From an uncultured Clostridia bacterium (lineage in GTDB: Bacteria; Bacillota; Clostridia; Christensenellales; Aristaeellaceae): DNA of 64,000 nt. The DNA lies in NCBI GenBank assembly GCA_947166385.1, contig CAMVEB010000009.1, positions 62,001-126,000 of the forward strand. Direction: 5' to 3'. The notes under the pieces were generated by a model. That model searched no databases. It saw only the letters and a list, made by a program, of their open reading frames with translations, and was not told where the DNA came from. A program made the position numbers and the translations under genes. Below are positions 60,663 through 63,660 of this stretch, piece by piece; the stretch's first letter is position 1, and every line of letters starts with the position of its first letter.

Positions 60663-60765
60663 TCAGTGGGGATGAAGAGCAGCGGGGTGCAAATAGGTAC
60701 TGTTAAGTATTATACACAAATTAATCAGCATTCCCTTGACTGCAAATACCTGATACTATTCTTCT

Positions 60766-60907
60766 ACTAAGAGCTATGCTGTAAAGGGTGAATTAAGACT
60801 TCACCCTTTACAGCATAGCTAGACAGGCCTTCTGTGGTAAGAAGGACTATTCCGCTATGCGGACCCCATCATAGGGCTTTGACAGGCCGATTATACCACA
60901 GGAGAGC
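60766..60907 (+). ncRNA. Highly structured leader/RNA candidate upstream of tnpV-like ORF
   Basis: Perfect 21-bp stem AGCTATGCTGTAAAGGGTGAA/TTCACCCTTTACAGCATAGCT (60772-60792/60800-60820), plus CCTTC..GAAGG, TCCGC.GCGGA, and CTGTGGTA/TACCACAG pairing that reaches the SD. Confidence 0.6.
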
Positions 60908-61024
60908 ATGGAAATGAAGAGCATCTTTGAACAAATGGGTGGAACGAATACCCAGGTTGGCAATTATCTGATCCCCCGACTTCACCACATTAATGTCAAT
61001 TATCAGAAAGAGAAAGATGTCTGA
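60908..61024 (+). pseudogene. 5' fragment of a TnpV-like transposon-encoded protein, interrupted by the IS1634-family element
   Basis: MEMKSIFEQMGGTNTQVGNYLIP then IS sequence from about 60975. Confidence 0.65.
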
Positions 61025-63025
61025 AAGCAAGGGAAATCATTAACTTTTCCTTACTTTTTTTATGCCGTTATGATACAATATAATAGCACGTACCGCTGCT
61101 ATTTCGAGGTGATTTGAATGACAATAGAGAAGTATGAATCAAATGGGATCGAATGCTTGCGAGTTGTTAGAACATATCGTGTCAAAAATACCAATGGGAA
61201 AAGTGTCAATCGCAAAGAAGTAATAAAATCCCTTGGTGCGCTTTCCAAGTATGACGATGGGCAGCCAGAATATCTGCAACGACTAAAGCAATCATTTGCT
61301 GAAAAGAAACCTCTTATTCCAGAATTGCTACCATATGTGGATCAGGCACCAAAGCAAAAGATTGCTGTTTCTTTTACCTTTGGGGATCGTTACTGTAGTT
61401 GTACGCCTAAGCTTTTTGCACCTTGCATACTTGATCCAGTCTTTGCTGCACTTGGTTTGGATGAACTTTTTGCCAGCATTAAGCATTCATCCAGGATTAA
61501 ATATGATCTGCAGGGAATCATTCGCCTGCTGACATATGGCCTGCTTCTTGAACCTGCATCAAAGATGGCGACCATGAAGCAAAACGATTCCTATTACCGT
61601 CCTCTTGTGAAGAGCACTTACGCCGACAATGTTTACGATGCGCTGGACGTTATTTACGAGAACAAACGACAGATTATGCAGCGGATGAATACCTGTATCA
61701 CCCGGGGTATCGGTCGGAATACCAGCACAGTCTTCTATGATGTCACAAACTTTTGCTTTGAAGCGAAACAACCAGATGAAGACGGACTGGACGATGAAGG
61801 GAACGTCTTGGAGCGTGGCCTGCGGAAGATGGGCGTATCCAAGAAAAACCGGAAACAGCCCATTGTGCAGATGGGACTGTTCCTGGATGACAACGGAATA
61901 CCGATCTCTATTCAAATGTTCCCTGGAAACACGCTGGATCATCTGACTTTCCGGACAGCGATGAAGAACACTGTGGATAATCTTGATCTGGAACGATTGA
62001 TTCTGATTGTGGACAGAGAAATGTATAACGGCACCAATATGTGTCATGTCCTGGACCAAGGAGATGGATATATCGTTTCCAAGAGCTTGAAGAAGAGTAC
62101 AAAGAACGAACGGGCTTGGGTGCTTGATCAGGAAGGTTATACCGTTGTCAGCCCAGATTTCAGATACAAGTCCAGAATCATCACCAGGACTGTTACTGCA
62201 GAAGACGGCAGTAAGAGGAAGATTCAGGAGAAGGTTGTTATCTACTGGAGCCGTGCTTTTTATACCCGGGAGAAGCATGAAAACCAGTCATTCCTTGATT
62301 TCATTGAGAAGCTCAAAGCTAAGCCGGCTGGTTTCCGGGTAACCGCTGCGCAGAGAAAGGGTCTGCGGAAATACATGAAGAAGGAAATGATCCAAAAAGA
62401 GACTGGCGAGATTGTTGATTCTAAGAAACTGCTTTCCATGATTGATGATGACAAACTGACGGAGTTTAATGAACTGATGGGATATTACCAGATTGTTTCC
62501 TCTGAGTTGGAAATGGATGACATGGAGATTATTGATAAGTATTATGGACTAACGCGAATTGGGGACAAGTTTCGAGAAATGAAGGGAACGCTTGAAACTC
62601 GGCTGATTTGGGTAAATACGCCGGAGCATATCCAGGCTCATCTGATGATCTGTTTTATGGCCCTTACCATGATGCGGATAATTCAGCACAAAATAAAGAA
62701 ATCCTTGCCGGAAGAAACGGCAAAGGATCTTAACTGGTCCTACGGATTGCCGGGAGATAGGTTACAGAAAGCGCTGCGTTTTTGGTCAATTGATCAAATA
62801 TCGGATGAATACTACCGAATGAGCAATATTAATGATGAAGATTTGAAAACCATCTGTTCCGCAGTAAATCTCCAGATTCCCCTTAAGCTCTTTACTCTCG
62901 GTGATCTGCGTTCCTTAAAGTCATCTGTGGAAATCTTCTGACTGCAAGTACTAATTATTTGGCAAAATGTGCCCCGAGCCGTTATCTGTCTTTGGATTTC
63001 CTGTTTTTGAAGTGGCAAAGTCGGG
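60975..63025 (+). mobile_element. IS1634-family insertion sequence (full copy)
   Basis: Imperfect terminal IRs CCCGACTTCACCAC (60975-60988) / GTGGCAAAGTCGGG (63012-63025), 12/14 match; intact transposase. Confidence 0.8.
61118..62941 (+). CDS. IS1634-family transposase
   Basis: FYDVTNFCFEAKQ, RKQPIVQMGLFLDDNGIPISIQMFPGNTLDHLTF, LILIVDREMYNG DDE-type core. Confidence 0.9.
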   Translation: MTIEKYESNGIECLRVVRTYRVKNTNGKSVNRKEVIKSLGALSKYDDGQPEYLQRLKQSFAEKKPLIPELLPYVDQAPKQKIAVSFTFGDRYCSCTPKLFAPCILDPVFAALGLDELFASIKHSSRIKYDLQGIIRLLTYGLLLEPASKMATMKQNDSYYRPLVKSTYADNVYDALDVIYENKRQIMQRMNTCITRGIGRNTSTVFYDVTNFCFEAKQPDEDGLDDEGNVLERGLRKMGVSKKNRKQPIVQMGLFLDDNGIPISIQMFPGNTLDHLTFRTAMKNTVDNLDLERLILIVDREMYNGTNMCHVLDQGDGYIVSKSLKKSTKNERAWVLDQEGYTVVSPDFRYKSRIITRTVTAEDGSKRKIQEKVVIYWSRAFYTREKHENQSFLDFIEKLKAKPAGFRVTAAQRKGLRKYMKKEMIQKETGEIVDSKKLLSMIDDDKLTEFNELMGYYQIVSSELEMDDMEIIDKYYGLTRIGDKFREMKGTLETRLIWVNTPEHIQAHLMICFMALTMMRIIQHKIKKSLPEETAKDLNWSYGLPGDRLQKALRFWSIDQISDEYYRMSNINDEDLKTICSAVNLQIPLKLFTLGDLRSLKSSVEIF

Positions 63026-63118: not shown

Positions 63119-63147
63119 TTTACGCCGGGTAAATCATGACATATAAT
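63119..63147 (+). promoter_or_regulatory. Promoter cassette copy C (decayed msrA)
   Basis: TTTACG-ccgggtaaatcatgaca(17)-TATAAT. Confidence 0.75.
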
Positions 63148-63177
63148 CTGGAAGAAACAATAAGGGAGGGGACAGCA

Positions 63178-63660
63178 TTGCGGACGATTTATCTTGCGGG
63201 AGGATGTTTCTGGGAACTGCAGAAGTTCTTCGATCAGTTTGACGGCGTTCTGCGTACGGAGATAGGGATGTCAACGGGCCAAAAAAGGCGTCGACCTATC
63301 AGGAAGTCTGCAACGACAGCGGGCACGCGGAGACTGTGAAGATCGAATATGACGAAGAAAAGATTACGCTGGAACAGCTCTTGAATTATTAATTTTTGGT
63401 CATCGATCTGCTGGCGGTGAACTAGCAGGGGCATGACAAAGGGATCCAGTACCGGACGGGATTTTCTATACGGCGGATAACCAGGTGCCAGCGATCCGTA
63501 GCGTGTATGACCGGGAGGAGAAAAAGATAGGAGCGAAGCTGGCCGTGCTGGCGGAACTGCTGGTCAACTTTTCTCCGCGGAGGAACACCACCAGAAATAC
63601 CTGGAGAAGAACCCGGGTGGGTACTGCCATATTCCACAGCAGTATTATTCCCTGGGTAAA
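63178..63660 (+). pseudogene. msrA: Decayed peptide-methionine (S)-S-oxide reductase MsrA
   Basis: LRTIYLAGGCFWELQKFFDQFDGVLRTEIG...TYQEVCNDSGHAETVKIEYDEEKITLEQLLNYY...[18 protein letters not shown]...[19 protein letters not shown] across several frames. Confidence 0.85.

Follow-up and report, generated by a model that had tools for sequence, protein, structure and literature searches.

A structured tnpV leader at the left end of serine recombinase elements, and a possible state-reading role for its alternative helices

What is the strong hairpin that precedes a tnpV start near the end of a 64,000-nucleotide stretch of DNA from an uncultured Clostridia bacterium (the window)? A sequence-only reading had seen in it a natural single-guide-RNA scaffold, with a cis-regulatory leader or a transposon end as alternatives. 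The hairpin itself is exact in the sequence, and its coordinates were confirmed: a 5' arm at 60772-60792 (AGCTATGCTGTAAAGGGTGAA), a loop at 60793-60799 (TTAAGAC) and a 3' arm at 60800-60820 (TTCACCCTTTACAGCATAGCT; supported by fold, covariation and cognate pairing) form a perfect 21-bp stem with a 7-nt loop, followed by short stems. Most relatives have a small internal loop in this hairpin, which the window copy lacks. The leader region folds at -84.2 kcal/mol, compared with -58.1 kcal/mol for dinucleotide shuffles (z = -6.1; 0 of 200 shuffles were as good). The mapped parts of the window copy and the insertion sequence that cuts it are on the forward strand.

Likeness to a guide RNA

The guide-RNA reading drew on the 13-mer AGAGCTATGCTGT at 60770-60782, identical to part of the S. 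pyogenes CRISPR repeat, and on a stretch at 60842-60858 (AAGGACTATTCCGCTAT) that loosely parallels the tracrRNA nexus. The identity is present, but it is weak evidence, as 4 of 200 shuffled windows reach a match of at least 13 bases. In the leaders of relatives, the longest match to the repeat is 0-11 bases; of all copies, that of the window comes closest to Cas9 RNA, and most subfamilies show no such likeness. Relatives keep the helices and not the letters of the Cas9 repeat, with 5' arms that vary freely (e.g., AGAGTTATGCTGT, AGATGTATGCTGT, AGAGTTAATATGT and GGGTTTATTTTGT) under preserved pairing. The parallel to the nexus did not hold either: this stretch is segment 3 of the leader (CGCTATGCG, 60853-60861), which forms a conserved helix with the hairpin 3' arm and reads GGCTATGC or GCAGTTAT in relatives. 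The structure also contains no spacer. Searches of the genome containing the window (G000, 94.6% complete) with profiles for Cas9 (TIGR01865) and TnpB/Cas12f (PF07282) gave no match, where an effector gene could have been missed because of the incompleteness. With letters that vary among relatives, a 13-mer identity that some shuffled windows equal and neither Cas9 nor TnpB found in the genome, we consider it extremely improbable that the structure is a natural guide scaffold, derived from or mimicking a Cas9 repeat:anti-repeat and nexus.

The hairpin as the left end of integrative elements

A whole-genome DNA search within the same family yielded about 25 related leaders, complete or partial, and the covariance model R1 detected divergent leaders beyond this family, elsewhere in its order and class. 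A protein scan for TnpV identified 80 loci in named genomes, together with 13 viral contigs; some of these TnpV genes had no such leader. Model R2, built from the alignment A3 described below, extended the leaders to additional families within the phylum, with three new loci, and in two of them (L219 and L220) the leader precedes a tnpV start. Among the tnpV copies that have a leader, the helices are conserved and the letters of the repeat are not. The leader had no match in the phage and plasmid collections. No Rfam family reached its gathering score anywhere in the window, a permissive Rfam search returned only chance-type matches to hairpin families, and the suggested check for a known Rfam leader family thus ended without a match. 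We found no description of the leader in Rfam or in the open-licence papers searched. This RNA structure, apparently uncatalogued, is conserved at the ends of a group of mobile elements in gut and rumen bacteria.

Some loci have other arrangements. In L027, L040 and L043, the leader is lengthened 5' of segment D' by an insert (about 75-80 nt) that has a G+C-rich hairpin of its own. At L062 (1501-1712), the leader precedes a 63-aa TnpW-like ORF instead of tnpV, and L029 (303-358) has a perfect hairpin standing by itself, followed by neither a leader nor tnpV. Short stretches in L028 and L042 share the upstream ~20 nt and the 5' arm of the window copy, and L028 has a similar sequence in inverted orientation ~200 nt downstream; these stretches possibly represent a small non-autonomous element.

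Similarity among the relatives begins at the hairpin foot and the flanks upstream are unrelated, so the foot marks the left end (LE) of an element. In the window, the LE with the hairpin 5' arm spans 60769-60792; it is segment 1 of the leader RNA and the presumed att half-site, whose TGTAAAGG motif is at 60780-60787. TnpV (PF14198) is encoded directly 3' of the LE and is intact in relatives. Further downstream are cargo genes, sigma-like, excisionase-like and TnpW-like proteins (named by sequence resemblance), and a large serine recombinase (LSR) of ~600 aa, 2-7 kb from tnpV. The LSR is present in many relatives, including the window-type LEs L045 and L106. The hairpin is thus the left end of integrative elements carrying tnpV and an LSR. 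The predicted structure of TnpV is a confident model (pLDDT 91.6), and a comparison with the PDB gave no match with an E-value below 1.

In the window, tnpV is a remnant of about 20 codons (MKSIFEQMGGTNTQVGNYLI, 60914-60972). A tblastn search with the intact TnpV of L074, from an uncultured Lachnospiraceae (of the loci compared, the one nearest to the window copy that has a whole TnpV; 89% identical over 206 nt), recovered residues 1-23 only, at 74%. The gene is truncated by an IS1634-family insertion sequence that is not part of the LE element (60973-63025; NF033559, 278.6 bits), with its transposase at 61118-62941 and inverted ends CCCCCGACTTCACCAC and GTGGCAAAGTCGGG. A related copy lies ~22 kb away on the same contig (G000:C9, ~101000). 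The tnpV-like element seen from the sequence does have a tnpV start, but only as a fragment fused to the end of this insertion sequence. Since the remainder of tnpV and any LSR are absent from the 64-kb window, the window copy is a relic and probably inactive. Just past the IS1634-family element, at 63136-63339, is an apparent frame-broken msrA start (AGGCFWELQKFFDQ).

The insertion sites of the elements are unrelated to each other and often lie within another LSR gene, after the codons SI.[NH][QH]. Among the 47 LEs from named genomes with enough upstream sequence, 20 are in frame behind the N-terminal box of a different LSR that is cut after SI.[NH][QH]. TnpV/LSR elements directly after this motif in the LSR genes of other elements are seen at L075, L078-L081, L083-L085, L093, L095, L096, L116, L118, L126, L136, L140, L144 and L148. 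In three genomes, the sequence past the element encodes the C-terminal part of an LSR, starting near residue 30, which defined right ends that finish in CCTTGACAAATCTCGTCT, CCTTGACAAATTCCATCT and CCTTGACAAATCTCGTCT, each followed by CA. Searching with a right-end pattern gave 19 matches in 15 of 17 genomes and three for a reversed-pattern control; roughly two thirds of the matches are followed by the conserved start of the LSR remainder (e.g., QKxxLxxYA). Because the pattern contains TTGACA, the right ends found with it are biased for this hexamer, whereas those from the three LSR-bounded genomes are unbiased. The subfamilies with known right ends, which do not include the window-type subfamily, have a 2-bp core CA at both ends.

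Other explanations of the ends were rejected. IS200/IS605-type ends were an early candidate, abandoned when an LSR and a CA core came to light. The right end of the element does not appear to provide a recombinase with a new N-terminus, as identity runs without a break at the NQ codons. A coding explanation, with the frame of the target gene running on (ELICKGW...VVGKE and a stop), is not kept between subfamilies.

At L199 (G1048:C6:2297500-2302000), a ~0.7-kb piece with both ends is inserted in an LSR gene the other way round, beginning with the right end and closing with the reversed hairpin, with no tnpV seen. Targets are not only recombinase genes: at L220 (TACAACCA target), the LE follows what seems to be the C-terminal end of a transposase of the IS3 type. 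Related elements nevertheless land repeatedly in the catalytic-domain coding region of the serine recombinase genes of other elements, which suggests competition between mobile elements.

Alternative helices and a predicted transcription start

Of the two promoter-like sequences around the hairpin, the one suggested earlier, TTGACT-15-TATTCT, is present as letters at 60736-60762, 5' of the hairpin. The other would exist only in a circle. The 5' arm contains TATGCT (60775-60780), a -10-like TANNNT hexamer whose -35 would be in the right end that is absent here. In a 33-sequence alignment, T1 and A2 of this hexamer never vary, T6 is kept in 32 sequences, and the three bases in the middle are variable. 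Intact right ends of relatives carry TTGACA, and joining them to the LE via the shared CA places TTGACA 17 bp before TANNNT (N10 + CA + N5). Judged by its sequence, TTGACA-17-TANNNT across the joint is a predicted promoter assembled on circularisation, as in Tn4451, whose circular form is reported to have a promoter at its joint (Lyras and Rood 2000, cited in PMC13023037). From general promoter knowledge, transcription would start about 6-8 nt past the hexamer, within AAAGGG of the 5' arm. As this start lies inside segment 1, the junction-promoter RNA would lack that segment.

Segment 2 (GCATAGCT, 60813-60820) lies within the hairpin 3' arm and can pair with segment 1 or, in an alternative fold, with segment 3. 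Segment D (TTCTGTGGTA, 60830-60839) pairs with D' (TACCACAG, 60894-60901), which overlaps the 5' edge of the tnpV ribosome-binding site AGGAG (60900-60904; assigned by sequence, with its position kept in relatives). CTGTGG and CCACAG adjoin this site, and the earlier suggestion that they pair is supported by comparing cognate with non-cognate pairing across relatives. The pairings 1:2 (the hairpin), 2:3, 3:4 and D:D' covary across 42 distinct leaders; 2:3 is mutually exclusive with both 1:2 and 3:4. For each of the four, the cognate duplexes of the 42 non-redundant leaders were better on average than 5000 of 5000 among-leader permutations, although for 3:4 one leader with an empty segment inflates the means, entering all permutations alike. 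Segment 4 is not evident in window-type leaders, and no consistent U-tract was seen after 3:4.

On alignment A3, helix 2:3 together with the upper hairpin had 90.9% of its cells paired and contained 57 two-sided changes, compared with 19.3 when shuffled and at most 14 when slid. The covariation score was 0.360 versus 0.213; because the shuffles keep relatedness, this is not a phylogenetic test. Examples of compensation are GAATAGC/GCTATTC in L057, TGGCAACC/GGTTGCC in L065 and CCCTGACTGC/GCAGTTGGG in L117. Such covariation might also reflect the shifting specificity of a protein, if the feature consisted of repeated and inverted DNA sites to which the recombinase or an accessory protein such as TnpV binds. 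Its position at a recombining end would fit this, as would the fact that TGTNAAGG of the LE 5' arm recurs in the right ends when these are read on the opposite strand. However, G-U pairs are frequent in A3 (columns 70-116 are GU in 21 of 33 sequences, and columns 69-117 are UG in 11), where DNA repeats would need Watson-Crick identity, and D:D' adjoins the ribosome site. The common G-U pairs favour RNA, and we regard a DNA-level feature as improbable.

At equilibrium, the complete leader folds into 1:2, 3:4 and D:D'. With segment 1 removed, 3:4 and D:D' mostly stay and the accessibility of the ribosome site is unchanged (0.39 versus 0.38). A simple thermodynamic ON/OFF switch of this site is therefore not supported, and only a kinetic switch is possible. 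In simulated nascent RNA extending to segment 3, helix 2:3 formed in 42 of 42 leaders without segment 1 and in 10 of 42 with it (on average 10.9 and 3.6 pairs, respectively), which is partly expected, as deleting segment 1 frees segment 2. With segment 1, most leaders form 1:2. In these folding models, a kinetic switch governed by where transcription begins is possible, and it may act on tnpV expression.

The explanation that best joins the computed end position, junction geometry, conserved alternative helices and start-point effect on nascent folding is that the feature is the LE of an LSR element fused to a structured tnpV leader, and that its 5' arm appears to have three jobs: as presumed att half-site, as a -10 completed on circularisation and as segment 1 of an attenuator-like RNA. 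We give slightly better than even chances to this state-reading switch, for which the right ends come from subfamilies other than the window-type. In the integrated element, read-through RNA would contain segment 1, so that 1:2 forms, leaving 3 for 4 (in subfamilies with segment 4) and D for D' beside the ribosome site; 3:4 and D:D' would be expected to lower tnpV expression. In the circle, RNA starting inside segment 1 would form 2:3 first, which would compete with 3:4 and keep D in a loop, and tnpV expression would be expected to rise. The leader would then offer the element a concrete way to tell read-through RNA from the RNA of its own excised form. More tentatively, and at somewhat less than even odds, it may be a riboregulator that senses the place where its own 5' end lies, with the same ~20 bases serving as element end, -10 and sensor strand, and the RNA reporting integration or circularity.

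Ends or leaders of IS10 and IS200 damp translation from external transcripts. Protection from read-through could likewise be all that the leader does, with the hairpin and D:D' damping tnpV translation and 2:3 a folding intermediate without a signalling role. The equilibrium fold of full-length leaders (1:2, 3:4 and D:D') is what this would predict, and many LEs lie inside transcribed genes. A functionless intermediate need not be conserved, though, and 2:3 covaries independently, as three of its pairs show 10 two-sided changes each. We therefore think protection alone unlikely, if still a serious contender. The two alternatives first offered beside the guide scaffold, a cis-regulatory leader and a transposon end, both hold and describe one object.

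Comparison with known systems

Joint promoters and read-through-blocking hairpins are already known. Attenuators of amino-acid operons (trp type) have ordered segments with mutually exclusive 1:2, 2:3 and 3:4 pairings, and the leader described here resembles them in both respects. It differs in that no leader peptide is kept between subfamilies and no consistent U-tract follows 3:4, and in its proposed input, the start position of the RNA.

Tn4451/Tn4453 and Tn6104-Tn6106 of C. difficile (TnpX-type) are similar in combining an LSR and TnpV in one element and in having a 2-bp core (PMC3158075). They are not known to have a structured leader whose helices alternate. The gene served by the joint promoter of Tn4451 is tnpX, whereas in the elements described here tnpV comes first and the LSR lies 2-7 kb downstream. 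In ICEKp1, ICEclc and Tn916, transcription of the excised form arises or is switched on when the ends are joined (PMC13023037); these elements are not known to have a conserved alternative-fold leader. Their promoter is located in one end, whereas the predicted promoter of the elements described here is split across the joint.
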